From Isosphaeraceae bacterium (GTDB taxonomy: Bacteria > Planctomycetota > Planctomycetia > Isosphaerales > Isosphaeraceae), in NCBI GenBank assembly GCA_025356475.1, contig JANXSX010000122.1:1-64000 (forward strand): 64,000 nt of DNA. Direction: 5' to 3'. The position numbers and the translations under genes are program-made. Shown piece after piece: positions 4,335-18,080 of the stretch. Within the stretch, counting starts at the first letter, position 1; every line of letters begins with the position of its first letter. Under the pieces are notes generated by a model. The model saw only the letters and a program-made list of their open reading frames with translations, did not search any database and had not been told where the DNA came from.

Positions 4335-4433
4335 ATGAATAGCAACCCTACCGACCAATCCCTTGAAGCGCCGCTACCGGCCGAAGAGAGCGATTTCGAC
4401 GAGCGGGGCGACGGCGACTGGGGAACTGCGTGA
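4335..4433 (+). CDS. Small acidic ORF (32 aa) coupled to heme oxygenase
   Basis: ATG 4335 is preceded by GGAG nine to twelve bases upstream and opens a 32-residue, strongly acidic frame ending in G-D-G-D-W-G-T-A. Its TGA overlaps the heme oxygenase ATG in the form TGATG, the classic arrangement for translational coupling. I do not recognise the peptide. It could be a leader peptide, the remnant of a longer gene, or noise; the evidence is the ribosome-binding site and the exact stop-start overlap. High G+C third positions begin here, as in the rest of the operon. Confidence 0.35.
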   Translation: MNSNPTDQSLEAPLPAEESDFDERGDGDWGTA

Positions 4434-5035
4434 TGACGACATCCGCCGCCGTACCACTGATTTTATCCCGACTCCGGGCCGAAACGCGGGCCGAACACGA
4501 GGCCATCGAAGCCGACCTCGACCTGACGGGCGGTGGACTGACCCGCGACCGCTACCGCCGTATCTTGGAACGCTTCTACGGCTTCTATGCCCCGCTCGAA
4601 CATGCTATCCGGGCCGTCGGCGGGTGGGCCGACCGCGACCTCGAACTGGACGCGCGGCGAAAGGGTCCACTGCTCGAAGCCGACTTGCGAACGCTCGGGG
4701 TCGATGCGCCGACAGCACTTCCGCTGTGCGACGACCTGCCGCCTCACGTCACGCCGGCCGACTGTTTCGGCTGCCTGTATGTGCTGGAAGGATCGACGCT
4801 CGGCGGGCAATTCATCAGCCGACACGTACAACACGCCCTCGGGGTGACGCCCGCAACCGGCGGTCGGTTCTTCCACGGGTACGGGGACAAAACGGGCGAG
4901 ATGTGGCAGAGCTTCCGGGCGTCCGTGACGGGCTTCGTCGTGTCCCCGGCCGATCAAGACGCGGCGGTGGCCGCCGCGAAAGACACATTCCAGAAACTAC
5001 ACCGCTGGACTGCAACGCGAGACGATTCACCATGA
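4433..5035 (+). CDS. bphO: Biliverdin-producing heme oxygenase
   Basis: A 200-residue all-helical heme oxygenase of the BphO type. The N-terminal L-R-A-E-T-R-A-E-H-E-A-I segment carries the proximal haem-ligand histidine (E-H at about residue 22), and the distal helix reads L-Y-V-L-E-G-S-T-L-G-G-Q-F-I with the glycine-rich kink typical of the family. It opens haem to biliverdin IX-alpha, the chromophore of the phytochrome encoded next. The ATG at 4433 overlaps the preceding TGA; a GTG at 4430 in the same frame is an alternative. Its own TGA overlaps the bphP ATG (ATGA at 5032-5035), so chromophore enzyme and photoreceptor are made together. Confidence 0.88.
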   Translation: MTTSAAVPLILSRLRAETRAEHEAIEADLDLTGGGLTRDRYRRILERFYGFYAPLEHAIRAVGGWADRDLELDARRKGPLLEADLRTLGVDAPTALPLCDDLPPHVTPADCFGCLYVLEGSTLGGQFISRHVQHALGVTPATGGRFFHGYGDKTGEMWQSFRASVTGFVVSPADQDAAVAAAKDTFQKLHRWTATRDDSP

Positions 5036-7383
5036 CCAATTCCGCTCTTCAAACTGACACCCCGCCGCCCTGGGACGGCCAGCCGTACAGCATCAAGCGG
5101 CACGGCCTCACCCTCACCAACTGCGACTCAGAACCCGTGCAGACGCCCGGGTGCGTCCAGGCCCATGGGGCGCTCCTGGTGTTGCGGTCGACCGACTTGA
5201 CCGTCCTCCAGGCGAGCGAGAACATCGAGAGCCTGCTCGGGCACGGGCCGGACCAACTGCTCGGCCAGTCAGTCGCCGCCGCCGTTGGCCCGAACGGCGA
5301 AGCCCTACTCCGCGAGTTCCTGGCGAGCGAGCCGACTGACCGCAACCCTCTGTACGTGTATACCCTACCAGACCGCGGCGATTTGCCCCCGCTCGACGTG
5401 ACCGTCCACACCATCGACGGCGTGGCGGTGGTCGAGTTCGAGGCTACCGGGCGGACGGACTCCAGCGAGCCGGACTACTACGCACTCGTCAAGAAGACCG
5501 TGACCCGGCTCCAGACAGCCGACACCCTGCGACAATTCTGCGACATCGCCGCCGAAGAGTTCCGCACCCTGACCGGCCTCGACCGGGTGATGGTCTACAA
5601 GTTCCACGCCGACGGGCACGGCGAGGTGTTCGCCGAGAGCAAGCGGGCCGACCTCGCCCCGTGGCTCGGTCTGCACTACCCGGCCGAGGACATCCCCAAA
5701 CCTGCGCGGGACATCTTTCAGCACATCTGGATCCGACCGCTCGCGGACGTTCACGGCGGCCTGGCCGAGTTGGTCCCGCTCACCAACCCGGACACCGGCC
5801 GGGCACTCACGATGACGTACTGTGCCCTGCGCGGGGCGTCGCTCATGTACACCGAATATCTGGCCAACATGGGGGTACGGGCAGCCCTCGTCATGCCCAT
5901 CCGCGGAATGGCCGGGCTGTGGGGCCTGGTCTCCTGCCACCACTACGCCGGGCCGAAGTTCATTCCTTACCAGGTGCGGGCGGCGTGCGAGTTCCTGGCC
6001 CAAGTGGTCTCGCTCCAGTACAAGGCGGCCGAGGATCGAGAACACTTCGTCTACCGGCTCAAGCTCGACGGCGTTCACCAGCAACTCGTCGCCCGGGCGG
6101 CGCAAGAGGGCGACCTGTCGGCCATGACCGACGGCAAGCCGGCCCTGCTCGACGGCCTCGCTGCGGGCGGGGCGGCCCTGTTCCACCGCGACCGCTGGTG
6201 GCGGGTCGGCACGACCCCGACCGAGTCGGAACTGGAAGCCCTCGGCGAGTGGCTGGTCGCGCGCCCGGAATTCGCCTCCGCCACCCGCCCGCTGTACGTC
6301 ACCGACTCGCTCGACCGCGACTACCCGCCGGGCGCGGCGTTCGCCGACGTGGCCAGCGGCGTCCTCGCGTTCCCGCTCTCGCGGGCCGGGAGGAACGTGA
6401 TGCTCTGGTTCCGCCCGGAGACGATTCAAACGGTAAACTGGGGCGGCAACCCGCACGAGAAGCCGACCGTGACGGGGCTGCACGGCCTGCGGCTCACCCC
6501 GCGGCGGAGCTTCGAGCTGTTCGCCGAGTCGGTTCGCGGGCGGTCCCTGCCGTGGACCCCGGTCGAAGTGGACGCGGTCGCCCGCCTGCGGATGTTGGTG
6601 ATGGAACTGGTTGTCAGCCGGGCCGAGCGGCTGGCCGACCTGAACGCCGACCTGTCCCGGTCGAACGAGGAACTCGACGCCTTCGCCTACGTCGCCAGCC
6701 ACGACCTCAAGGAGCCGCTGCGCGGCATCCACAAGTACGCCCACCAGTTACTCGAAGAAGCGGCCGTGACGGACGAGGAGCACCGCAAGAAGCTCGAAAG
6801 GCTGATGCGGCTGACGGTGCGGATGGACGGCCTGCTCGACTCGCTGCTGCACTTCTCCCGGGTCGGTCGGGCGGCCCTCCGGTTCGAGGAGACGGACCTG
6901 AACGAGGTGCTGGCCGAGGCCGTCGAGATGGTCGGCTCGCGGACCGCCGACGGGCGGTCGGAGGTGGTCGCCCCCCGGCCCCTACCACACGTGCGGTGCG
7001 ACCGGGTGCGGTGCCGGGAAATCCTGGTCAACCTCCTGTCGAACGCCCTCAAGTACACTGGCGAGGGGGAGAAGCGGATCGAGGTCGGGTACATCAACCC
7101 GGGCGAAGACCACCCCCGGCCCGCGTGCCCGGACGGGGCCGCAGGTCACTCGATCTTCTACGTCAAGGACAACGGCATCGGCATCAGCCCGAAGCACTTC
7201 GGGCAGGTGTTCAAAATGTTCAAGCGGCTGCACGGGCAGGACGATTACGGGGGTGGGACCGGTGCCGGGCTGACCATCGTGAAGCGGCTGGTCGAGCGGC
7301 ACCGCGGGCAGGTCTGGCTCGACTCGGCACCGGGAACCGGCACCACCTTCTATTTCACCCTGCCGTGCCAGGAAGGAGCCTAG
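5032..7383 (+). CDS. bphP: Bacteriophytochrome histidine kinase
   Basis: A 783-residue bacteriophytochrome with the full PAS-GAF-PHY-HisKA-HATPase order. Cys31 in T-N-C-D-S-E-P lies where bacteriophytochromes bind biliverdin covalently. The GAF domain has H-Y-P-A-E-D-I-P near residue 220, and the PHY domain has W-F-R-P-E-T-I-Q-T-V-N-W-G-G-N-P. The HisKA helix carries the phosphoacceptor His557 in A-S-H-D-L-K-E-P-L-R, followed by an N-box (N-L-L-S-N-A-L-K-Y), D-N-G-I-G-I and a glycine-rich G2 box. It should be a cytoplasmic red/far-red sensor. The open frame extends upstream to 4363, but that part merely shadows bphO; ATG 5032 overlaps the bphO stop. Nearly every third codon position is G or C. 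Confidence 0.92.
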   Translation: MTNSALQTDTPPPWDGQPYSIKRHGLTLTNCDSEPVQTPGCVQAHGALLVLRSTDLTVLQASENIESLLGHGPDQLLGQSVAAAVGPNGEALLREFLASEPTDRNPLYVYTLPDRGDLPPLDVTVHTIDGVAVVEFEATGRTDSSEPDYYALVKKTVTRLQTADTLRQFCDIAAEEFRTLTGLDRVMVYKFHADGHGEVFAESKRADLAPWLGLHYPAEDIPKPARDIFQHIWIRPLADVHGGLAELVPLTNPDTGRALTMTYCALRGASLMYTEYLANMGVRAALVMPIRGMAGLWGLVSCHHYAGPKFIPYQVRAACEFLAQVVSLQYKAAEDREHFVYRLKLDGVHQQLVARAAQEGDLSAMTDGKPALLDGLAAGGAALFHRDRWWRVGTTPTESELEALGEWLVARPEFASATRPLYVTDSLDRDYPPGAAFADVASGVLAFPLSRAGRNVMLWFRPETIQTVNWGGNPHEKPTVTGLHGLRLTPRRSFELFAESVRGRSLPWTPVEVDAVARLRMLVMELVVSRAERLADLNADLSRSNEELDAFAYVASHDLKEPLRGIHKYAHQLLEEAAVTDEEHRKKLERLMRLTVRMDGLLDSLLHFSRVGRAALRFEETDLNEVLAEAVEMVGSRTADGRSEVVAPRPLPHVRCDRVRCREILVNLLSNALKYTGEGEKRIEVGYINPGEDHPRPACPDGAAGHSIFYVKDNGIGISPKHFGQVFKMFKRLHGQDDYGGGTGAGLTIVKRLVERHRGQVWLDSAPGTGTTFYFTLPCQEGA

Positions 7384-7384
7384 C

Positions 7385-7828
7385 ATGACCGCCGTACCGA
7401 AACTGCCACCCATCATCATCGTCGAGGACTCGGACGAGGACTTCGACACCGTCCAGCAAGCCGTGCGGAAGGCCGGCGTCGTGGCGGAGGTCCGGCGGGC
7501 CACGACCGGGGGCGGGTGCCTGGACCTCCTCCACGGCGTCGCCGCGATCCGCCCGGCGATGGTGCTGATGGACCTGAACACGCCGGGCACCGACGGCCGG
7601 GAGGCGCTCGCGGCCATCAAGGGGGACGACGCGCTCAGGGCGTTTCCGGTGGTGGTGTTCAGCACGTCGGCCGACCCCCGCGACCTGCTGTACTGTTACA
7701 CCACCGGGGCGAACGCCTACCACGTCAAGCCCATCCGCTACCCCGACCACCTCCAGCTCGTCATCGACATTCTCACCTACTGGCTCGGAAGGGTCGCCCT
7801 GCCGGACCCCGGAGAGACAAGCCCATGA
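7385..7828 (+). CDS. Single-domain response regulator (Rcp1 type)
   Basis: A 147-residue receiver domain with the acidic pair E-D near residue 14, phosphoacceptor Asp63 in L-M-D-L-N-T-P-G, the conserved serine/threonine in V-V-F-S-T-S-A and the lysine in Y-H-V-K-P. The L-N-T-P-G and H-V-K-P-I-R-Y signatures match the small response regulators that accompany bacterial and cyanobacterial phytochromes. The ATG lies one base after the bphP stop, and the TGA overlaps the next ATG. It has no output domain, so it probably relays phosphate from BphP to another protein, possibly to or from the hybrid kinase that follows. Confidence 0.88.
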   Translation: MTAVPKLPPIIIVEDSDEDFDTVQQAVRKAGVVAEVRRATTGGGCLDLLHGVAAIRPAMVLMDLNTPGTDGREALAAIKGDDALRAFPVVVFSTSADPRDLLYCYTTGANAYHVKPIRYPDHLQLVIDILTYWLGRVALPDPGETSP

Positions 7829-10800
7829 CGACCGTTTCGGCTCAAATAGAGGCCCAGGTGTGGCGGGTCGTCGTCATCGACGACAGCCCGGACGACCGGG
7901 CCGAGGTCCGCCGGCTCCTCCTGAAGGGGTCCGAGCGGCGGTACCAGTTCGTCGAGGCCGAGACCGGGGCGGCCGGGGTGCGGGCCGCCCTCGACCCAGT
8001 CGCCGGGCCGCCGGGGTGCGTCGTCCTCGACTACAACCTGCCGGACCTGGACGCGGTGGAGGTGCTGGCGGCCCTGGCCGGCCCTGACGGCCTGACGGCC
8101 TGCCCGGTGGTGGTGCTGACCGGCACCGTCGGCCACGAGCACACCCGGGCGGTCCTCCGGGCCGGGGCGCAGGACTACCTCGGCAAGGGGTGGATGACCC
8201 CCGAGAGCCTGACCCGCGCGGTCGAGAACGCGACCGAGCGGTGGGTCATGGCCCGCGAACTGCGCAAGCAGAAGGCGGCTCTAAAGACGAGCGACGACCG
8301 CTTCCGGCTCGCCGCCGACGCCGTGAACGGCATCATCTACGAGTGGGACATCCTGACCGGTCACGTCGAGCGGCAACGTGGGCTGTACGAAGTCCTCGGC
8401 TACCACGCCGTCGAGGTTCCGCTGACCGCCGCATGGTGGCGGGAGCAAATCCACCCCGACGACCTGGAGGTAGTCGAGCAGCAGTTCACGGAGTTAGCGG
8501 GCAACTCCGTCGTGAGCGAGTACCGGGTGCGGCACAGGGACGGGCGTTGGCTGCACCTTGAGGACCGGGCCGTGTTGCTGCGGGGCGACGACGACCGCCC
8601 GGTGAAGATGGTCGGCTGCGCGGTGGACATCACCGACCGCAAGCGGGCCGAAGAGCGGCTGCGGTACAGCGAGCAGTTGCACCGCGTTGCGTTCGACCAA
8701 TCCCCGACCGGAATGGTTTACGTCGGGGCGGACGGGCGGCTCATCAAGGTGAACCCTGCGATGTGCGTGATCACCGGCTACCCCGCCGAGGAGTTGGTAG
8801 GGATGAAGGTGTCCGACCTCACGCACCCGGATGACCTGGCCGCCGACGCCGAACTCGTCACCCCCTTCCTGCGCGGCGACACGCTGACCTACGAGAACGA
8901 CAAGCGATATGTGCGGAAGGACGGCGGCGTCCGCTGGGTGTCCATCACCGAACGTATGGTGACGGACGCTGAGGGCCAACCGCTCCATAGTGTGGGCGTC
9001 GTCCGGGACATCACCGAGCGCAAGCGGGTCGAGGGGGAGCGGCAGCTTCTCGCCTCGATTGTGGAGAACTCGTCCGACTTCATCGGCATCTCGGACACGC
9101 AAGGCAACCCGGTGTACGGCAACCGGGCGGCGATGGAACTCGTCGGCGTCCAAGACCTCGAGCAGGTCTGGCGTACTAAGATTGTCGAATACTTCGTCCC
9201 GGAGCAGCGACCATTCGTCGCAGAAGTTATCCTGCCCGCCGTCGTTAAGGACGGGCGCTGGTGTGGCGAACTGACGATGCAACATTTCGTCACGGGGGCG
9301 ACGATCCCCGTCTGGTACGACCTGTTCCGGGTAGACGACCCGGTGACGGGCCGGCCGATCAACTTCGCCACCATAACCCGCGACCTCACCGAGTCGAAGC
9401 GGGCCGTGGAGACGCTCCGGGCGAGCGAGGCGTTCAACCGCAGCCTGATGGAAGGGAGTGCCGATTGCGTTAAGGTGCTGGACTTGGACGGGCGACTGCT
9501 GCACATGAACTCCCCCGGCCTGTGCCTGATGGAGATTGACGACATCGGGCCGCTGTGCGGGCAGGAGTGGCCGGCCCTGTGGCCGGCCGAGGCCGAAGTC
9601 GGCATCCGCCGGGCCGTCGCCGCAGCCAGCGGCGGCGACAGCTACTCGTTCCGGGCGTTCTGCCCGACGGCGAAAGGGACGCCCAAGTGGTGGGATGTGG
9701 TCGTTAGTCCCGTTTGCAACGCCGCCGGGCGGGCCGTGCATCTGTTGGCGGTCTCCCGCGACATCACCGCCTACAAGGAGGCCGAGGACGCGCTAAGCGC
9801 GAACGAGGAGCGACTGCGGATGGCCCTGGCCGCCGCCCAGGCCGGGGCGTGGGCGTGGGAGGTATCGACCGAGGTCATCACCTGGTCGCCAGAAAACTAC
9901 GAACTCTACGGGTACGACCCCCAGGCCGGCGGTCCGCCGGCCTACGCCGACTGGAAGGAACGGGTCCACCCGGACGACCGCACGCAGGCGTACGCCGCCG
10001 TCGACGACGCCCTAGCCGGCCGCACCCCCGAGTTCCGGTCCGAGTTCCGCGTCACCCACCCGACCCGCGGCGACCGCTGGCTGCTCGGCCTCGGGCGGGT
10101 CGAGTTCGCCCCTAACGGGGAGCCGCTTCGCGTGGTCGGCATCAACCTGGACATCACCGACCGCAAGCGGACCGAGCAGTTAATGGCCGAGCAGGACGTG
10201 CGGAAGGACGAGTTCCTGGCCACCCTGGCCCACGAACTCCGTAACCCGCTCGCCCCGATCCGCAGCGGGGTGGCCGTCCTCCGCATGACTCACGCGCCCG
10301 AGCTAACCGAGAAGACGCTCGGGATAATCGACCGGCAGCTCGGGCACCTGGTCAACCTGGTGGACGACCTGCTCGACGTGTCCCGGGTGCGGGCCGGGAA
10401 GATCACTTTGCGGACCGAGCAGGTGACGGTCCGCGACGCGGTGGACGCAGCCGTCGAGGCGTGCCGGCCCGCCATCGACGAGAAGTCCCACACGCTCGAC
10501 GTGGACCTCCCAGCCGAGTCGCTGGCCGTGACCGGGGACAAGACCCGGTTGGTGCAGGTGGTCGCCAACCTGCTCACCAACGCGGCCAAGTATAGCGAGC
10601 CGGGCGGCCACATCCGGATCACTGTCAAGCGTGACGGCAAGAAGGCTCTCGTGAGTGTCTCGGACACCGGCATGGGCATCGCGCGGGAAACCCTGCCAAC
10701 CCTGTGGGACATGTTCACCCAGGTGCGGGACACGCTGGACAAGGCCCAGGGCGGCCTCGGAATCGGGCTGTCCCTGGTCAAGAAACTGGTCGAGATGCAC

Positions 10801-11331
10801 GGCGGGTCGGTCGCGGCCGAGAGTGCCGGGGTCGGCCGCGGCAGTACCTTCACCGTCCTCCTGCCGCTCGCCTCAGCGAGCATGGCCGCCGCACCGTCCG
10901 TGCCGTTACCGGAGAGCAACGGGTCAGCCCGCCCGGCGGCCCGGCGGGTGCTCGTGGTGGACGACAACGTGGACGGGGCCGAGATCCTGGCCCGGCTGCT
11001 CACGTTCTCAGGCCACCGGGTTGAGGCCGTCCACAGCGGACCAGCCGCATTGGAAGCCGCCCAAATGTTCTTGCCCGACGTGGTACTCCTCGACATCGGC
11101 CTGCCCGGGATGGACGGCTACGAGGTCGCCAAGCGGCTTCGCGCCGACCCGACCACGGCCGCCGCCGTCCTCGTGGCGCTGACGGGTTGGGGGAACGAGG
11201 ACGACAAGCGGAAGTGCCGGGAGGCCGGGTTCGACGTTCACCTGACCAAGCCCGTCGAATTCGCGGCCTTGACAGACGCGCTCTCCCGCTCTTCCTCCCT
11301 CAACCGGCGAGACGGCAGTTGGCACTGGTGA
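7825..11331 (+). CDS. Hybrid histidine kinase, REC-PAS(x5)-HisKA-HATPase-REC
   Basis: A 1168-residue cytoplasmic kinase without membrane segments. Order of domains: receiver (Asp69, about 10-130), five PAS/PAC modules (about 150 to 790, each closed by an R-D-I-T or D-I-T-D-R-K type PAC end), HisKA with His803 in A-H-E-L-R-N-P-L-A-P, HATPase_c (N-L-L-T-N-A-A-K-Y; D-T-G-M-G-I), and a C-terminal receiver (Asp1090 in L-L-D-I-G-L-P-G-M-D-G). ATG 7825 overlaps the previous stop. Receivers at both ends fit a phosphorelay in which the N-terminal one takes input from the phytochrome branch. The last three codons and the stop lie inside the left terminal repeat of the mobile element that follows, so the original C-terminus was probably slightly different; both receivers look intact. 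Confidence 0.9.
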   Translation: MTTVSAQIEAQVWRVVVIDDSPDDRAEVRRLLLKGSERRYQFVEAETGAAGVRAALDPVAGPPGCVVLDYNLPDLDAVEVLAALAGPDGLTACPVVVLTGTVGHEHTRAVLRAGAQDYLGKGWMTPESLTRAVENATERWVMARELRKQKAALKTSDDRFRLAADAVNGIIYEWDILTGHVERQRGLYEVLGYHAVEVPLTAAWWREQIHPDDLEVVEQQFTELAGNSVVSEYRVRHRDGRWLHLEDRAVLLRGDDDRPVKMVGCAVDITDRKRAEERLRYSEQLHRVAFDQSPTGMVYVGADGRLIKVNPAMCVITGYPAEELVGMKVSDLTHPDDLAADAELVTPFLRGDTLTYENDKRYVRKDGGVRWVSITERMVTDAEGQPLHSVGVVRDITERKRVEGERQLLASIVENSSDFIGISDTQGNPVYGNRAAMELVGVQDLEQVWRTKIVEYFVPEQRPFVAEVILPAVVKDGRWCGELTMQHFVTGATIPVWYDLFRVDDPVTGRPINFATITRDLTESKRAVETLRASEAFNRSLMEGSADCVKVLDLDGRLLHMNSPGLCLMEIDDIGPLCGQEWPALWPAEAEVGIRRAVAAASGGDSYSFRAFCPTAKGTPKWWDVVVSPVCNAAGRAVHLLAVSRDITAYKEAEDALSANEERLRMALAAAQAGAWAWEVSTEVITWSPENYELYGYDPQAGGPPAYADWKERVHPDDRTQAYAAVDDALAGRTPEFRSEFRVTHPTRGDRWLLGLGRVEFAPNGEPLRVVGINLDITDRKRTEQLMAEQDVRKDEFLATLAHELRNPLAPIRSGVAVLRMTHAPELTEKTLGIIDRQLGHLVNLVDDLLDVSRVRAGKITLRTEQVTVRDAVDAAVEACRPAIDEKSHTLDVDLPAESLAVTGDKTRLVQVVANLLTNAAKYSEPGGHIRITVKRDGKKALVSVSDTGMGIARETLPTLWDMFTQVRDTLDKAQGGLGIGLSLVKKLVEMHGGSVAAESAGVGRGSTFTVLLPLASASMAAAPSVPLPESNGSARPAARRVLVVDDNVDGAEILARLLTFSGHRVEAVHSGPAALEAAQMFLPDVVLLDIGLPGMDGYEVAKRLRADPTTAAAVLVALTGWGNEDDKRKCREAGFDVHLTKPVEFAALTDALSRSSSLNRRDGSWHW

Positions 11332-11831
11332 ACATTTCTGGGTGCCACTAGTCGTACCTGACTAGTGCCTTCATGGGGCCATCGGCGGTCCTTGCTCAGA
11401 GGAGATTTTCAGGTGAATTTCGTCGACTCTGAACGCACGTTAAGAGATTTCACGCGCCCGGTAATTGCCACGAGTTGACTTCTCGTACCATCCTCGGATG
11501 CCGCTCTTGACCAACACTACGAGCGGCCCGGATTTCATCGTCTTCGATCCTTGCAGGAAAGGCAAGTTCTGATCGGAACCGCCGGTCCGCCAAGTCCGAG
11601 GAAGCCACGATCGCCTCTATGATACGAGAACCCGGTTCGTCGACAACTCTGCAAGAAGATGGCTGATTGGCGATGGTCGAGTGCTCGTCACGACTAGGTG
11701 CACGGAAAATCCATTGCCAATCCAGGAATTGACCTGAGAATTCTCTGCTGAATTCTCACTTGGCCGCCGAATAGATCAAGACACTTGCCGAGTACGACCC
11801 AGTGGATCCCCAGACATGCTCACCAGTGCCA
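11320..11831. mobile_element. MITE-like element, copy A (512 bp)
   Basis: Ends are perfect 11-bp inverted repeats, TGGCACTGGTG at 11320-11330 and CACCAGTGCCA at 11821-11831; allowing mismatches and small gaps the inverted repeat extends for about 50 bp. No open frame codes for a recognisable transposase. The right-hand two thirds match copy B at 12595-12933, while 11367-11557 is absent from copy B and matches a separate repeat at 17770-17964. I saw no clear target-site duplication. The family is not one I can name. Confidence 0.7.
11367..11557. repeat. 190-bp dispersed repeat, copy inside element A
   Basis: This stretch aligns with 17770-17964 along most of its length, sharing blocks such as GGTCCTTGCTCA, GATTTCACG and TTGACCAACA-like segments in the same order. 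It is missing from the related element B, so it looks like a nested insertion. A small hairpin, ACGAG and CTCGT around a 7-base loop, is conserved in form between the copies. Confidence 0.6.
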
Positions 11832-11936
11832 TCCGCCGGGCTGGCCGATCAAAAATCGATCAAAGCGTGCTTGCGCAAGCTGCTTGAGCCAAAAAACGCC
11901 TCAGGCGTACGCCGGTTGCTGTCGGGGACGTGAATA

Positions 11937-12263
11937 CTAACCTTCATTCTCTTTCGGATTTACCGGCTTTTCGCCCGGTGCTCCGATGGCGAGAATGACC
12001 ACCTCGTCGCCTCGGACGACGAAGAGTGCTCGATATTTCCGGCCCTTCGGGAGCCCAAAGAGCAGATGACGAACCTCTTCGTCAAAGCCCGGGTTCTCGT
12101 AGGCGAGGCCGCAGGAGAGGGGAAATTACGCAAGGCGGGAGAGACATTCTTCGAAGCGTGCTTCGAGACGGTCGGCCGCCTGGGGAAACCGTTCGGCAAG
12201 CGATTCGAGGAGACGATTCATGTCCTTGCGGGCTCGCTCCGAAAACTCAATTCGGTAATTCAT
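11937..12263 (-). pseudogene. RelE/ParE-family toxin, inactivated by a stop codon
   Basis: The frame starts at ATG 12263, overlapping the antitoxin stop as ATGA, and reads as a ParE-type toxin: M-N-Y-R-I-E-F-S-E-R-A-R-K-D near the start, then after about 45 codons an in-frame TAA (12128-12126), and beyond it F-P-L-S-C-G-L-A-Y-E-N and K-G-R-K-Y-R-A-L-F-V-V with R-G-D-E-V-V-I-L-A-I-G, ending at TAG 11939-11937. Apart from the TAA the frame is continuous for 108 codons, the normal size of the family, so a single base change separates it from an intact mRNA interferase or gyrase poison. The antitoxin upstream is intact. Confidence 0.85.
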
Positions 12264-12514
12264 CGATTACCAAGGCGAAATTTTTTGCGGAGATCGGCGA
12301 GGACTTCGTTGGCGGGACGAGTTCTCCCGGCATACATATCGTCCAAGCCTTCACGGATAGCCACGGCGGTCTCCTCTCGCTCCTCATCGGTCTGATTCTC
12401 GTATTCCCAGAGGTCGAGAGCCTCTTCGAGCGTGATGTTTGCCCCACCGTTTGAGAGCTTGGCGTCGGCGAAATCGCGGAAAGCTTTCAGGTCATTCGCT
12501 CGTACTGTTTCCAT
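12260..12514 (-). CDS. Type II antitoxin, partner of the broken ParE toxin
   Basis: An 84-residue acidic protein starting M-E-T-V-R-A-N-D-L-K and containing E-A-L-D-L-W-E-Y-E-N-Q-T-D-E-E-R-E-E-T and a C-terminal I-R-E-G-L-D-D-M-Y-A-G-R-T-R-P-A-type segment that is common in planctomycete toxin-antitoxin antitoxins. ATG 12514 has GGGAGGG ten bases upstream; a TTG at 12523 in the same frame is too close to that site. The TGA overlaps the toxin ATG by four bases (ATGA). With the toxin dead, this is an orphan antitoxin, perhaps kept for regulation or for neutralising a related toxin elsewhere. Confidence 0.75.
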   Translation of the reverse strand: METVRANDLKAFRDFADAKLSNGGANITLEEALDLWEYENQTDEEREETAVAIREGLDDMYAGRTRPANEVLADLRKKFRLGNR

Positions 12515-12594
12515 AGTGTTCAAACCCTCCCAGGCTTCACTTCTAGAATAACACTAAGGGCGAATTTTGGGTGCGATTGATGAAGCACTGGCAT

Positions 12595-12933
12595 GTGGCA
12601 CTAGTGAACAATTCTGGGTTTCACTGATCGTACTCGACTAAGGAGATCAGAGCGGACGCAAAAACGCGAGAAGAACTCCCCTTCCTTGCTACAGACACCT
12701 CTTAATACGAGAACCCGGTTCGTCGACAACTCTGCAAGAAGTTGGTTGATTGGCGATGGTCGAGAGATCGTCGCAACCAAGTGGACGGGAAAGGCACCCC
12801 CCAACTCGAAAATCCACCGCCGATTGAGGGCTTGCCTTAGAATTCTCTGCTCAGCCCTTGCTTGGCCACCGAACAGATCATGACTGTGGTCGAGTACGAC
12901 CAAGTGGCACACAGACATGCTTAGAAGTGCCAC
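12595..12933. mobile_element. MITE-like element, copy B (339 bp)
   Basis: GTGGCACT at 12595-12602 is repeated inverted as AGTGCCAC at 12926-12933, and the imperfect inverted repeat runs on for about 50 bp including GTCGTACTCGAC-like sequence. The interior shares a long block with copy A, beginning ACGAGAACCCGGTTCGTCGA and including AACTCTGCAAGAAG and TTGATTGGCGATGGTCGA. A 110-residue open frame on the minus strand has no recognisable domain and is probably incidental. Confidence 0.68.
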
Positions 12934-12946
12934 CCGCCGGAGATCT

Positions 12947-12967
12947 GTTCAAATCCCATCGCCCCGA
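12947..12967 (+). other. 3' fragment of a tRNA gene (proline-like), possible attachment-site scar
   Basis: G-TTCAAAT-CCCAT-CGCCCCG-A reads as G53, T-loop, 3' half of the T-stem, 3' acceptor strand and discriminator base. CGCCCCGA at the 3' end fits a tRNA-Pro that starts CGGGGCG. The 5' partner of the T-stem is absent, and upstream lies mobile element B, so only the 3' end of the tRNA is present. A fragment of this size is what integrase-mediated insertion into a tRNA gene leaves at the distal end. Confidence 0.5.
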
Positions 12968-12983
12968 CTTTGTTTTCGGGAAA

Positions 12984-13016
12984 GCTCATCGCTGGGAACG
13001 GCGATGGGCCTTTTTG
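12984..13016 (+). terminator. Rho-independent terminator behind the tRNA fragment
   Basis: A 9-bp stem, GCTCATCGC (12984-12992) with GCGATGGGC (13001-13009, one G-T pair), an 8-base loop, then CTTTTTG. It is probably the original terminator of the tRNA gene, now orphaned. Confidence 0.75.
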
Positions 13017-13238
13017 CTTGAAATTAAGCGTTCTCGGGCCGCAGCCCTGTGGTTCAAATGTTCAGAACTTTGGCAGGGGTTCTTTTCGTCGCTCGTTGCA
13101 ACCGCCTTGCCACATTGATGTTGCGTTGGTTCAAACGTTCAGGCGCCGCGCGCTGAGTGTCAGCTTGAACCCCGTTCCACTACAATATGTCTGGGAGTGC
13201 CGAGGACAGCTTACGAAATTATTTTGAGTTGCGTATGA
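13017..13238. other. Intergenic region with two near-identical 15-bp repeats
   Basis: No gene seen. GGTTCAAATGTTCAG at 13051-13065 recurs with one change as GGTTCAAACGTTCAG at 13128-13142. Their role is unknown. Confidence 0.4.
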
Positions 13239-13385
13239 TGTCGCTCGAACTGCCTCGACTGGACGAAGGTCAACCCCGACATTTTCGGCTCCATGATCCA
13301 GGCGGTGGCCGATGACGAGGAACGCGGGGCGCTACTCCCGCAACTGCTGAGCCGCAGCCTGCAAATCAATTATCAAACCGAATAA
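13239..13385 (+). pseudogene. Relic of an MmeI-like DNA methyltransferase
   Basis: A stop-bounded frame of about 48 codons contains L-D-W-T-K-V-N-P-D-I-F-G-S-M-I-Q-A-V, which matches the conserved pre-motif of MmeI-type adenine methyltransferases (W-x-x-V-N-P-x-I-F-G-x-M-x-Q), then E-E-R-G-A-L, where the family continues with G-x-H-Y-T. Here the similarity stops and TAA follows at 13383-13385. The parental enzyme is over 800 residues, so this is a short internal remnant directly before the helicase gene, evidence that a restriction or defence locus once stood here. Confidence 0.6.
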
Positions 13386-13389
13386 TACC

Positions 13390-15537
13390 ATGATTAACAC
13401 AGTATGGGGCAGCACAGATAAGCCCGTTGCGAGCTGGCGGCTGGCGCAAATTCTCAACGCGGAAGCGGACCTCGAAGGCACTCTCTACATTGGGTATCCA
13501 ATAATCGGCACGCCTGAGGGTTCCTTTCCGATAGATGCGTTACTCGTGTCGCCGACCAAAGGCCTCGTTTTGTTTAGCGTGGTTGAAGGCAGGGTTCTCC
13601 CGGACTTCGTCGAGGCACAAGACGAGGGCTTTAATAAGATGCAGGCAAAGCTGCTTCAGCATCAGACCCTGATCCGCAAGCGGCAGCTGATTGTTCGTAT
13701 TCACACAGTCACTTTTGCGCCTGCCATCCTGCAACTTGAACCTTCCGACGATTACCACCTTCTCTGCAATGCAGACACCTTGGTTTCGACTATCAAAGCA
13801 CTCGATTGTTTCGACTCGGAGGTTTTCCCGTCACTGGTTTCGGTCATTCAAGCAATATCCACACTACGAAGGGGCAGGAAAAAGCGCGCACTGCACAGCC
13901 AAACTTCGCGAGGCACTAAGATTAAGGCATTGGAAGATTCGATCGCGAATCTCGACAGCCAGCAAAGCGCAGCAGTGGTTGAAACGTATGAAGGTGTTCA
14001 GCGGATTCGTGGGCTCGCAGGATGTGGCAAGACCATCGTTCTGGCTTTGAAGGTAGCCTACTTGCACGCCCGCCATCGGGACTGGTTGATCGCTGTAACA
14101 TTCAGCACACGGTCACTTAAAAAGCAGTTCGAGAACCTCATCACGACATTCGTGCTAGAGCAGGCAAACGAAGAGCCGGATTGGGACAAAATCCGCATCT
14201 TGAATGCGTGGGGCGCACCGGGCGGATCCGACCGCACTGGCATCTACTACGAGTTCTGCTGTGACCATGGCGTCGAGTATCTTGATTTTGGAACCGCAAA
14301 GAATCGCTTCGGGTCCGACAAAGCGTTTGAAGCGTCGTGTGAAACCGCCCTTCAAAGTGTCAAACAATTCGTCCCAAAATACGATGCGATCCTCGTCGAT
14401 GAGGCTCAGGATTTTGCGCCCAACTTCTTGTTGCTCTGTTACGAATATCTCAAGGAGCCGAAGCGCCTAGTCTACGCATACGACGAGTTGCAGAACCTCG
14501 GGAATAGGTCACTTCCGCCTGTCGAAGAAATCTTCGGAAAAAACACAGATGGAACTGCCCGCGTCGTCATCCACCCGCCCGAGACAGGCAAGCCAAAGCA
14601 GGATATCATCCTCGACACCTGCTACCGCAACTCGCGCCCTGTCTTGTCCACGGCTCACGCACTTGGGTTTGGGGTTTACCGCGCCAAGGGCCTAGCTCAA
14701 ATCTTTGAAAACAAGAACCTCTGGTTCGACATCGGCTACCAAGAGACCGATGGGGAAATCAAAGACGGCAAACTCGTGACTATCAGCCGCACGCCAAAAT
14801 CCAGTCCTGAGTTTTTGGAAACCCATTCTCCCGTGGATGACTTGATTCAGTTTGAAGTCTTCAAAACCGCCGAAGCACAGACTGCCTGGCTCGTTGCGGA
14901 AATTGAGGGGAACCTGACTAAGGACGAACTGATACCTGACGATATTGTCGTCATCAATCCTGACCCGTTAACAACGAAGGAGGCAGTCGGAGAGGCGCGA
15001 CGGATGCTGTTGCAGATGGGAATCAATTCGAACCTCGCTGGAGTGACGACGATTGCCGATGTTTTCACCGAGCCAGGGACTGTGACGTTTACTGGCATCT
15101 TCCGCGCAAAGGGGAATGAGGCTGCGATGGTTTATGTGATCAACGCACAGGATTGTTTTGGAGCAAACCTGCCAAGGGATGTCGCACGCGTCCGAAACCG
15201 CCTTTTTACGGCAATCACACGCTCGAAAGCTTGGGTGCGAGTTCTCGGTGTTGGGGAGGCGATGTCGGCTCTGAAGGAGGAGTTCGAAAAGGCGAAGAAG
15301 CAGAACTTTGCGCTGCACTTTGTCTACCCAACCGAAGACGAGCGGATGACGATGATGACTGTAAATCGTGACATGTCGAAAGCAGAGCAGGACCGAAGCA
15401 ATAAACGTACAAACGATTTTGCTGACATTATCGAGTCCTTGGATTCAGGAGAGAGCGTCATCGAAGATTATCCCGATGACCTGGTGAAGAAGTTTCAAAC
15501 CTTTGTGGCCAACAAAGCCAAACGCCGCCGAAAATGA
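13390..15537 (+). CDS. Superfamily I helicase with N-terminal NERD-like nuclease region
   Basis: 715 residues. The N-terminal part (about 20-110) contains P-I-D-A-L-L-V-S-P-T-K-G-L-V-L-F and resembles a NERD/PD-(D/E)XK nuclease, although the usual E-x-K is not intact (V-V-E-G-R). A UvrD/Rep-type motor follows: Walker A G-L-A-G-C-G-K-T near residue 208, Walker B L-V-D-E-A-Q-D-F near 335, a C-Y-R-N-S motif, and a C-terminal T-A-I-T-R-S-K motif VI near 608, ending in a lysine/arginine tail. It probably unwinds or senses DNA ends in the cytoplasm. The start has a weak ribosome-binding site. Its stop overlaps the DUF2290 gene by four bases. G+C is lower and codon use different from the operons on either side, consistent with transfer. 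Confidence 0.82.
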   Translation: MINTVWGSTDKPVASWRLAQILNAEADLEGTLYIGYPIIGTPEGSFPIDALLVSPTKGLVLFSVVEGRVLPDFVEAQDEGFNKMQAKLLQHQTLIRKRQLIVRIHTVTFAPAILQLEPSDDYHLLCNADTLVSTIKALDCFDSEVFPSLVSVIQAISTLRRGRKKRALHSQTSRGTKIKALEDSIANLDSQQSAAVVETYEGVQRIRGLAGCGKTIVLALKVAYLHARHRDWLIAVTFSTRSLKKQFENLITTFVLEQANEEPDWDKIRILNAWGAPGGSDRTGIYYEFCCDHGVEYLDFGTAKNRFGSDKAFEASCETALQSVKQFVPKYDAILVDEAQDFAPNFLLLCYEYLKEPKRLVYAYDELQNLGNRSLPPVEEIFGKNTDGTARVVIHPPETGKPKQDIILDTCYRNSRPVLSTAHALGFGVYRAKGLAQIFENKNLWFDIGYQETDGEIKDGKLVTISRTPKSSPEFLETHSPVDDLIQFEVFKTAEAQTAWLVAEIEGNLTKDELIPDDIVVINPDPLTTKEAVGEARRMLLQMGINSNLAGVTTIADVFTEPGTVTFTGIFRAKGNEAAMVYVINAQDCFGANLPRDVARVRNRLFTAITRSKAWVRVLGVGEAMSALKEEFEKAKKQNFALHFVYPTEDERMTMMTVNRDMSKAEQDRSNKRTNDFADIIESLDSGESVIEDYPDDLVKKFQTFVANKAKRRRK

Positions 15538-16199
15538 CACCCAAGCAAACGCTCAAACAGATCAATGAACTCACCCAGGCTCTGGTGGGACTGAGCCTTT
15601 CGAATGAGCAGAATTTTCCAACTACGCAGGGGAAACCCAAGGCGGCGTTCGAGATTTCAGTGAGCACCGCCGCAGGAATGAGCGTCGCACTTAAAAATTT
15701 AGCTTACCGTGACATCTACGGGGAGCTGGAGAAAGCGCGGTGCTTCAACATCAAGATGCTGGATGGCGCATTGGTTTCACTTCGCTACCGCTTTCTGGCC
15801 GGAGTCATCCGCGAACATTCGCTCGCATACTTCCCGTCTCCGGACCTCGAACATTTTCAGAACGAGCCCGAAATTTATCTGGAGGACGAGATCTATGCGG
15901 ATGTCGTTGCGAAAAATATCGTGCCGTTCCCTATTCGTTTCGACTTTAGTGACGACAAAGAGAAGTTTGTGGACGTTGACCACCCGTATTCCCACTTAAC
16001 GCTCGGCCAATACAAGAATTGCCGAATACCAGTCTGCTCCCCACTTGGACCGCTTGCTTTCGGCGGCTTCATTTTGAGGAACTTCTACAACACGGCCTTC
16101 CGCAAATTCTCAGACAGATTTCCAACCAGCAAATTGGGATTCGCCAACACAATCACCGCGAAGGAAAGAAAGATCCAGCATGTCGTCTTAGGCGTGTAG
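15534..16199 (+). CDS. DUF2290 family protein, partner of the helicase
   Basis: 221 residues, no signal or membrane segment. The Y-R-D-I-Y-x-E-L-E-K-A-R, K-M-L-D-G-A-L-V-S-L-R-Y, F-P-S-P-D-L-E-x-F-Q-N-x-P-E-I-Y-L-E-D-E-I-Y-A-D and H-P-x-S-H-L-T-L-G-Q-Y-K-N-C-R-I-P segments, plus the C-terminal F-I-L-R-N-F-Y-N-T-A-F, are the full-length signature of DUF2290 as I know it. The family has no assigned activity. The ATG overlaps the helicase stop (ATGA at 15534-15537), so the two proteins are made in fixed ratio and probably act together. The invariant histidines, aspartates and glutamates leave room for a metal-dependent activity, but that is a guess. Confidence 0.75.
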   Translation: MTPKQTLKQINELTQALVGLSLSNEQNFPTTQGKPKAAFEISVSTAAGMSVALKNLAYRDIYGELEKARCFNIKMLDGALVSLRYRFLAGVIREHSLAYFPSPDLEHFQNEPEIYLEDEIYADVVAKNIVPFPIRFDFSDDKEKFVDVDHPYSHLTLGQYKNCRIPVCSPLGPLAFGGFILRNFYNTAFRKFSDRFPTSKLGFANTITAKERKIQHVVLGV

Positions 16200-16658
16200 A
16201 GTCGGCGTCGATGCTGGCCTTGGTACCGGTCGGCGGCTATACTTCATCTGCGGGGTGGGCTACATGCCGAACGCCTGCCGCATCCTGCTGACTGAAAAGA
16301 ATCGGGAGGCAAAGTTGCTGGCCGACGTGCTCCTGTGGTGAGTGGTGGGATGGTGTGGTGCGGGCACAAAAAATGAATGCGGTGAATCGTAAGCATCATT
16401 CCTGCTTAGGCTTACCGTCATCCATCCGCCGTCGCAACCCGGCTTCCCAGCCCCGAATCGCGGCCAGAAAAAGTTCTAACCGTGTCCTGTCGCCCCGAAG
16501 GCTTGTTACGAGCGGGTTCGTCGTGGAGAATGAGCGAGTGTATGATTGCGGGCTGGCCCGGAAGTTGGCCGGATGGCCGGGTTGCAGCCAGAATCGAGCG
16601 GAGATCACCTGCCCCACCAAAACCTATCGGCACCCCTTCTCGGTGAGAGGAGTCGGAC
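16200..16658. other. Intergenic/relic region behind the DUF2290 gene
   Basis: No intact gene is convincing. 16200-16338 stays open in the +1-shifted continuation and ends at a TGA after A-D-V-L-L-W, which could be the tail of a lost gene. On the minus strand, 16396-16620 is a 74-codon frame with R-L-E-L-F-L-A-A-I-R-G-W-E-A-G-L-R-R-R that looks protein-like but is not one I recognise. Both are treated as possible remnants. Confidence 0.35.
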
Positions 16659-17678
16659 TTGGTCATGTTTACGTATAATCAACAAAAACGGTTTTTTAAT
16701 TTTCTAAATGGCGAAGAGTTCACTTTCCCTAATCGCGCATTGCTTGACATGCACTTGGGTCCCCCGCAGGCATTTGGCGCAGCGGCTGGCCCGGTAAGTC
16801 TAATGTGCATCCCGGATTATTTAGTAGGAACCCTCATTAACGGCAACTCTGGACTTTATCAGTACATTCATAATTCCAAGCTCCAACCTCTTGAAATGAG
16901 AATAGAATCTGAATCACCCCCTCGGATAGAATTTGGAATTGCAGGGGACAGACTGCATTGCGAATTCGAGTGCAATAGTCTTGACGATCTCGAGAGCATG
17001 ATATTCTCGATCGTGTTTTTTTATGTACCACTCCTGAACCTTGAGTCGCTTGACCCTCCTGTCGTGATTTGTGTCTCGGGGAGTGCAGGAAGGACAGAAT
17101 TCCGATGGGAGCATTTGCGCCATATGCTACCCATGAATACAACGACGGAAGAGTCCCTGATAAATCACATGTCCAACTCTTACAAAAATTTAGATCTTGT
17201 TGGAAGGGAGTGCAACCGGCGTCTAGCGGTTGCACTCTCGTATTTTTACGTTGCCGCGCGACTTCTAGTCGTCGGACAATCGAGGTGGGAATTCATGGCC
17301 GAGTGTGTGCTCAATCTTTCGAAGACGTTGGAGATCCTTTTCGGCGGGACTAGAGACAAGACCCGCACTCACCTAGCAGCGCTTGAGTAGAACAGCCAGG
17401 AGATAGAAGGGGACTTCATTCCCCTTATGCTGCTAAGGGACGAATTAAACGTTGCCCACGTAAGACTGTGTTTAGTGAAGAGTGAAGAGCTCGACGTGAT
17501 TTATAGGTATCTCACTCACGGCGAACTGCGCATACGAGAACTCCTCAAGAAAATCATTGCGAAAACCACTGACGGCACTTATGCGTTAGAACCGGGGGGG
17601 AGCTTGACCCCCGATTCCCAACGACAAGCAAAACTCAGTAAGCTGATCGAGAGTATGGCAAAACGGATTCCGGAGTGA
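16659..17678 (+). pseudogene. Unknown, possibly HEPN-like protein interrupted by an amber codon
   Basis: TTG 16659 (AGGAG six bases upstream) or ATG 16665 opens a frame of 243 codons that ends at TAG 17388-17390. The same frame continues without shift for another 96 codons to TGA 17678, and the text across the TAG is smooth, so one gene of about 340 codons has acquired a stop. The C-terminal half contains S-K-T-L-E-I-L-F-G-G, R-D-K-T-R and L-R-D-E-L-N-V-A-H-V-R (an R-x6-H pattern), reminiscent of HEPN-type domains in abortive-infection proteins. I do not recognise the N-terminal 200 residues. It lies in the low-G+C accessory block after the helicase-DUF2290 pair. Pseudogene, sequencing error or readthrough are all possible. 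Confidence 0.6.
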
Positions 17679-17769
17679 GCGATGATTTCTCCCAGCCCAA
17701 CTGAAAGGGTCGAAAACAGCCGGCTTCACTGATGATCATATTGAAATTCCTTTGAAGTACACAGTCAAC

Positions 17770-17964
17770 GCCTTTGTAGGGCCTTCAAAGGTCCTTGCTC
17801 ACAGGCGATCTTCACATTACTGACTCGACTATGTGCGGTGGTCGAAGGAGCGTCAACAGATTTCACGAGCCCGGTGATTGCCGCGAGTTGAACTTCTCGT
17901 GCTACTGTCAGGTGTCGCGCCTGACCAACATTTCGAGGGGTCGGGACTTCATCCAACGTGCAGG
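17770..17964. repeat. 190-bp dispersed repeat, second copy
   Basis: Aligns with 11367-11557 over its length in the same orientation, with shared GGTCCTTGCTCA, GATTTCACG(A/C)GCCCGGT and GACCAACA blocks. No terminal inverted repeats are visible around this copy. It marks the right edge of the scarred accessory block, just before the catalase gene. Confidence 0.6.
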
Positions 17965-18080
17965 TCGGAATCAATGCGGACGCGGGTGTGTCGAGGACTC
18001 TATTCCCACCGAGGACCGTGGGAATAGAGTTTTGAAGCCAGATCGACTGATGAAAAGGGGATTTATGACGGGCCCATTTC

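Follow-up and report, generated by a model that had tools for sequence, protein, structure and literature searches.

The window, i.e. the whole stretch of 64,000 nucleotides analysed here, belongs to one contig (C131) of a 5.9-Mb draft genome in 232 contigs, designated G000. The part of the window under study carries two copies of a terminal-inverted-repeat element (element B), a short piece of a tRNA-Pro gene, a terminator, two adjoining genes and a second tRNA-Pro-derived sequence, as follows.

11313 to 11839, unstranded: element B, copy 1, with inverted-repeat arms at 11313-11342 and 11809-11838 (87% complementary)
12590 to 12940, unstranded: element B, copy 2, lying where the 5' part of the tRNA should be; left end approximate
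12947 to 12967, plus strand: tRNA-Pro 3' fragment from G53 to the discriminator A73, an attL-like core and probable left boundary of a cassette (sequence match)
12978 to 13016, plus strand: intrinsic terminator directly after the core, a hairpin and T-run (minimum free energy -21.0 kcal/mol)
13390 to 15537, plus strand: UvrD-like helicase gene (PADLOC PDLC03002 'Helicase', 1042.9 bits, E 0; Pfam UvrD_C_2, 31.5 bits)
15534 to 16199, plus strand: DUF2290 gene (PADLOC PDLC02999, 325 bits; Pfam PF10053, 172.9 bits)
16408 to 16468, plus strand: conserved 3' end of the cassette, the left arm of the right-hand site, common to other planctomycete loci
16469 to 16498, plus strand: right-hand site AAAAGTTCTAACCGTGTCCTGTCGCCCCGA, an element-side arm and then the 14-nt tRNA-Pro core (exact match)
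16659 to 17390, plus strand: ORF in the low-GC segment after the cassette, with no Pfam match at 0.01

The fragment, GTTCAAATCCCATCGCCCCGA, corresponds to the 21-nt 3' end of a tRNA-Pro. The initial annotation had recognised such an end with a terminator attached to it, and both the match and the hairpin with its T-run are borne out; copy 2 of element B, the element held there to replace the rest of the tRNA, stops a few bases before the fragment. The 21-mer has two mismatches each to the host tRNA-Pro(CGG) and tRNA-Pro(GGG) ends and five to that of tRNA-Pro(TGG), a gene whose end differs from those of the other isoacceptors. ARAGORN found no tRNA in the window, and Rfam gave no match there at gathering score. 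Window positions 12959-13088 align (72% over 131 columns) with DNA at and after a related site in another contig of the genome, C137, where a terminator is present too.

Across G000, the last 20 bases of the fragment recur at 10 places with two or fewer mismatches and at 11 with three or fewer. Three of the 11 represent two intact tRNA-Pro genes (GGG, where the ends of contigs C3 and C227 overlap; CGG, in C137), seven are 3' fragments, and the remaining one, in C201, has three mismatches. The seven fragments fall into six loci, namely the window itself (C131), C50, C35/C37 (whose contig ends overlap and hence form one locus), C103, C27 and C147; a G precedes the 20-mer in all six, and the 5' part of the tRNA is absent from each. 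The exact 20-mer is found only in the window and in C50, both of them fragments. Extra tRNA-Pro 3' fragments also occur in relatives and, judged by eye, some span about 45 nt from the anticodon loop and others about 21 nt.

The fragment forms the left edge of a 3.5-kb segment on its right, which is closed by a second tRNA-Pro-derived site, so that the core stands at both ends of 12947-16498 as a duplication of a tRNA 3' end at an element boundary. The initial annotation had placed the fragment at the distal end of a single island; that layout is not supported, for the cargo lies to the right, in 12968-16498. The two ends flank the helicase gene, the DUF2290 gene and unassigned DNA, with no genes for integration or transfer, which is the make-up of a CIME, and we infer that both ends are working att sites. 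The arm at 16408-16468 recurs with 82-93% identity over 60-119 columns, site included, at L261/L317, L263/L340, L272, L283, L296, L300 and L355. GC content is 0.528 in the cassette, 0.503 in 16499-18080 and 0.582 in 18081-64000, and the low-GC segment with the ORF at 16659-17390 is possibly the next cassette; no closing site was found after 16498 up to 21000, and a scan for weaker sites was also negative.

The helicase and DUF2290 genes are adjacent and overlap by 4 nt, as in the two-gene make-up of a known defence system. The available part of the report on P4-like satellites describes a Helicase and DUF2290 pair that inhibits phage T7 (PMC9122126), and its two-protein make-up is the same as that of 13390-16199; in contrast to the satellite system as presented there, the pair here sits in a planctomycete cassette. 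Going by this likeness, the pair is probably an anti-virus system. Ahead of the helicase gene, a short open stretch at 13240-13385 is maybe a gene remnant; a methyltransferase remnant, suggested for about 13240-13385 by a motif, was not supported by comparison with the type IIG-like enzyme of C37.

A local-alignment scan of 12 contigs or parts of contigs of G000 revealed 24 core-like places and none in reversed controls. The repeated motif, AAAAAGTTCTAACCGTGTCCTGTCGCCCCGA, has the tRNA-Pro core as its last 14 bases, and its first part replaces the T-loop. In the whole of G000 there are 15 copies of this site at three or fewer mismatches (control 0), their direction is uniform on every contig that holds more than one, and the site was present in eight of the 59 genomes searched, G000 included. 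Genes adjoining or separating these sites include those for toxin-antitoxin and restriction systems, for Septu and for CARF-HEPN. Cassettes closed by a site at each end, or by a core and a site, carry a type IIG-like enzyme with an AAA ATPase (C37), a HipA-like protein (C103), SocA/Panacea (C147), ParA with HEPN (C50), Fic (C212), an ABC-3C-type pair (C201) and, right after tRNA-Pro(CGG), a PIN protein (C137); Septu PtuA/PtuB with a Cmr1-like gene (C27) and a CARF-HEPN gene (C137) adjoin a core or site that has no closing partner on its contig.

For the cargo of G000, 30 cassette or neighbouring ORFs were compared with Pfam and 10 cassette ORFs with PADLOC. Matches to toxin-antitoxin, restriction-modification, CRISPR, HEPN/CARF, Fic, ABC-3C, Septu or Helicase/DUF2290 families were obtained for 14 of the 30, a set chosen by eye and not a fair sample. 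In other genomes, PADLOC at 1e-10 matched none of 10 ORFs to the right of sites and two of 10 to the left (an AbiEi and a Fic-like ATPase with weak pAgo-type matches), and weakly matched two of the 10 window ORFs that served as backbone controls; 10 ORFs were taken from 69 that were available and 10 from 72, besides the 10 from the window. Defence enrichment as a general rule was not demonstrated in this small comparison.

A search of contigs from 84,980 species genomes with the site pattern returned 100 stretches from about 77 assemblies, as counted by accession prefix, where our own arithmetic gives about 0.1 chance matches for the whole collection. By title, 89 stretches belong to Planctomycetota, five to unnamed bacteria and six to contigs of metagenome-assembled genomes (MAGs; 3.4-85 kb) labelled as other groups. 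Several matches are cultured isolates (Zavarzinella, Stieleria, Roseiconus, Roseimaritima, Singulisphaera and strain TBK1r), and binning error therefore cannot explain the spread. Neighbouring sites, present in five of the 100 loci, point the same way in 7 of 7 pairs and are 0.57-5.4 kb apart; the cassettes can be very small, with 569 and 649 nt in L321 and 1482 nt in L303. Further, G038 and G057, genomes of different bacterial families, share an oxidoreductase-like ORF that lies near sites and has 86% identity between them; it may be taken as a second sign of movement, besides that of L320 below. Plasmids and phages gave no DNA match to the site region of the window, nor did plasmids to the fragment, and among IMG/VR viral contigs the site pattern occurs in one.

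The link of these sites to tRNA-Pro is seen most directly in the eight of 100 loci whose fetched stretch contains a tRNA-Pro (the other 92 have none). In seven of these the tRNA lies upstream of the site, on the same strand and at 0.8-4.7 kb, with TGG, CGG and GGG isoacceptors all represented, and in one it lies on the opposite strand; tRNA-Pro accounts for 8 of the 14 tRNAs in site loci against an expectation of 3 in 46 (P about 7e-7). A clear, almost exact repeat of the tRNA trailer follows the site in one of the seven loci (L287, score 115). Repeats at L341 (39) and L361 (48) are weaker and fall below the best cross-locus score of 57, and the other four loci score 11-15, as do unrelated pairs (mean 15.4). 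In four of the seven (L329, L356, L358, L361), the site and the adjacent tRNA do not agree in their last nine bases, a figure to be read with the search pattern in mind, as it fixed eight of those nine bases. Since trailer repeats are rare and the last nine bases differ in 4 of 7, the exchange does not in every case amount to a clean replacement of the tRNA end.

In the Isosphaeraceae, tRNA-Pro is a hotspot for insertion. The gene that precedes the G000 tRNA has a relative next to the tRNA in 7 of 18 CGG and 10 of 14 GGG loci examined. Few ORFs downstream of the G000 genes are shared: 16 have any match around the tRNA-Pro genes of other genomes, and several of these match related families whose distance from the tRNA is different. 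In one relative, G023, a segment of about 4.3-4.4 kb (L121:4394-8833) extends from tRNA-Pro(CGG) to a 3' fragment, the two having identical 21-nt ends, and no integrase was recognised among its listed ORFs. In another, G020, tRNA-Pro(GGG) and a matching 3' fragment lie 98 kb apart on one contig (L134:600-2085 and L133), with an integrase-like gene just inside the fragment that is 42% identical to one in G013.

The sequence that speaks most clearly for exchange is L320, a 3.4-kb contig of a MAG labelled Rhodanobacteraceae. It equals C103 in 115 of 115 nt before the core and in the 21-nt core itself, and diverges from it immediately thereafter, so that two different cassettes stand behind one left flank: the HipA-like cassette in C103 and, in L320, genes that read as catalase-peroxidase and Fur-like. 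The L320 cassette ends in a site two bases before the contig end; it was not found elsewhere in G000, where a search with L320 matched just 43 nt around the shared core (E 1e-10; 40 of 62 candidates scored). On comparison of the sequences, the pair provides the best evidence for an apparent change of cassette at the core. The counts for upstream conservation and for trailer repeats detract from two of the supporting arguments, whereas the central ones stand. Taken together, we consider it probable, with reasonable confidence, that 12947-12967 marks where a small mobile cassette (12947-16498) was joined by recombination on its left, one of many located at a tRNA-Pro-derived core and served by an integrase acting in trans.

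Other readings of the fragment have to be weighed against this one. A random tRNA-like 21-mer without function could be suspected from its shortness and from its two mismatches to the nearest host tRNA-Pro ends. This reading is already refuted, and its probability is negligible, given that about 0.005 matches with two or fewer mismatches to the 21-mer are expected by chance in G000, that the backwards control has none and that the 20-mer recurs exactly in C50. The 3' piece might instead be a passenger of a transposable repeat, be it element B or a dispersed repeat of about 190 nt together with the core, with no site-specific recombination involved. The repeat indeed lies directly before the core in C27, C103, C147 and G009, G005 has just the last part of it in that position, the core beside a copy in C174 is degenerate, and element B precedes the core in the window and in C50. 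Yet the sequence left of the core varies among arrays, which have the core and the internal sites in common whether the repeat is present or not, tRNA-Pro lies upstream of the site in seven of the 100 loci, and the L320/C103 breakpoint falls at the core end; we regard a passenger origin as unlikely. The third possibility is the one held in the initial annotation, a single phytochrome island in tRNA-Pro with 12947-13016 as the distal att site and an intact tRNA to be expected past the left end. Pairs of a tRNA-Pro and a far 3' fragment do exist in relatives (98 kb apart in G020, 4.4 kb in G023), and the region at 4363-11331 has 68.4% GC. On the other side stand the second site that bounds the cargo on the right, the ordinary genes (aconitase and enolase, by reading of their translations) to the left of the fragment in C103 and C147, and the failure to find, among the tRNAs of the G000 assembly, any that ends CCCATCGCCCCGA, the 3' end that the initial annotation had proposed to look for. 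Nor was an intact tRNA seen at the other boundary, either in the window or in the rest of C131, a contig that starts at window position 1. The nearby integrase that should accompany such an island was sought as well, and PF00589 has no match on C131. We hold this island to be very improbable. From the integration-scar reading, the look of a recombination boundary and the tRNA-Pro hotspot stay, as does the general idea of tRNA-Pro as an att site, given the hotspot and the adjoining recombinase genes in relatives; what finds no support is the single-island layout and, with it, the phytochrome operon as cargo, as nothing ties 4363-11331 to the fragment site.

The fourth rival concerns the agent and would class the cassettes as ordinary integron cassettes (CALINs) on whose attC sites the IntI of G000 acts. 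In integrons and CALINs, small and varied cassettes follow one another in a single direction, the integrase lies outside the array, the attC sites form long palindromes, and the integron box is GTTRRRY. The planctomycete arrays share the one-directional layout, with cassettes down to 0.57 kb, the variety of cargo and the separate integrase, and G000 has an IntI-like gene (TIGR02249, 356 bits) at C152:64870-65583 (L034, L168), cut by the contig end, with no cassette array of its own seen on C152. Against this, IntI above the cut-off is found in one of seven checked site-bearing genomes, G000 alone, and seven other genomes with IntI above the cut-off have no site. The sites also differ from attC in having no attC-like folding and no GTTRRRY box: for the 120 nt up to the end of the site, 97 loci with 20 shuffles per locus average a z of -0.17 and show no sign of folding, a stretch of that length centred on the end of the site, in the region of the terminators, averages -1.69 (96 loci), and the site has GTTCTAAC or GTTCAAT. 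By the features tested, the arrays are not an integron, and service by the G000 IntI is highly improbable.

Candidates for the agent of the proposed cassettes are found beside the sites themselves. A home-made profile and Pfam detected integrase-type genes on the site or immediately behind it in 5 of 100 loci (L306, L309, L336, L349 and L358; the Pfam match of L309 covers an N-terminal domain only), and these integrases suggest a source of mobilisation. They are tyrosine integrases and form several distant groups, which points to no single enzyme. The integrase of L336 is 42-46% identical to those of G006 and G003, and further integrase genes lie 1.1 kb (L282) and 3.6 kb (L353) from a site. 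In relatives, tyrosine integrases stand beside tRNA-Pro or its fragments in G006 (by Pfam) and in G003, G013 and G020 (by similarity). G000 itself has six PF00589 places, none of them on contigs with fragments. A large serine recombinase as the agent in G000 was set aside, as PF07508 has no match in that genome. Putative large serine recombinases were noticed directly downstream of, and antisense to, tRNA-Pro(CGG) in G013 and G014 (L216:14873-16840, L223:36-1055), with a C-terminus, NRGERI, and stop codon that are encoded by the tRNA 3' end.

In the model that we favour, a cassette would comprise a 14-nt core of the TCCTGTCGCCCCGA type, from the T-arm and acceptor strand of tRNA-Pro, usually a terminator, and one to a few genes, and would end in a 3' arm terminating in AAAAAGTTCTAAC[C/G]GTG or a variant, followed by the core again. 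Cassettes would insert at tRNA-Pro 3' ends, where the incoming core and terminator could replace the tRNA's own end, and insertion at other core-bearing places would give rise to one-directional arrays. Most cassettes would lack a recombinase, and the most likely agent would be a tyrosine integrase supplied in trans by related autonomous elements, some of which appear to carry their integrase at the same site. The identity of the recombinase, excision and transfer are all read from sequence comparison and are to be taken as predicted.

By analogy, the mode of action may resemble the tandem accretion of cis-mobilizable elements at an RNA gene. Among the cases found, the ssrA islands of Dehalococcoides come nearest: in the part of the report available (PMC3146451), they lie in tandem downstream of the RNA gene, with insertion in the T-loop and direct repeats of its 3' end; 15 islands without an integration module are suggested to be cis-mobilizable, a motif precedes each repeat, and the islands, all of them no more than 100 kb from their target ssrA, have 20-bp repeats and a serine recombinase. 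The tandem layout, the T-loop insertion, the 3' repeats and the members free of an integration module are alike in both. In contrast to that description, the planctomycete cassettes have a tRNA-Pro target, tyrosine-type integrases, a Planctomycetota-wide site, very small size and tRNA-less edges. CIMEs, described in the available text of PMC5704250 as decayed ICEs or IMEs, have att sites, no genes for integration or transfer and a tandem arrangement with other elements, in all of which the planctomycete cassettes agree with them; the latter differ from that account in going down to 0.57 kb, in being many per genome and in a site common to classes of the phylum. In a largely open-access body of literature, the titles and abstract openings showed nothing recognised as such a system.

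It is tempting to go further and to envisage a phylum-wide, integron-like system built on the tRNA-Pro 3' end, in which the 30-nt site would correspond to attC, and tRNA-Pro together with tRNA-less 'pads' to attI. A recombinase acting in trans would shuffle cassettes of less than one to a few kilobases, some of them for defence, each with its own terminator that would keep the tRNA functional. We put this forward tentatively, as a possibility that we hold to be somewhat doubtful. Are integrase-free cassettes, far below the size of islands, shuffled in trans at a tRNA gene like integron cassettes at attI? Whatever the answer, one 30-nt site offers a sequence handle with which the accessory genomes of planctomycetes can be divided into mobile units, and should help to find their cargo, some of which are candidate antiphage systems.

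A few observations concern the left part of the window and the dispersed repeat. The region at 4363-11331 holds phytochrome histidine kinase and hybrid histidine kinase genes, with 68.4% GC against 58% in the right part of the window, and was possibly acquired, but has no att site linked with it. On the minus strand at 11940-12540, flanked by the two copies of element B, lies a toxin-antitoxin-like pair, named from reading of the sequence, whose second ORF contains an in-frame stop. A structured RNA was considered for the repeat of about 190 nt and rejected, the folding z being -1.14 and the covariation unfavourable, with two-sided change in 3 of 36 pairs; Rfam on eight loci gave no match besides one intact tRNA. 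The repeat is dispersed over several genera of the family (L174-L178, L180-L182, L184, L185 and L187; C27, C103, C147 and C174) and in some places lacks the core, and several of its copies have a hairpin core like GCGTCGGTGTGTCGGACCGACGC, sometimes directly before the tRNA-Pro core.
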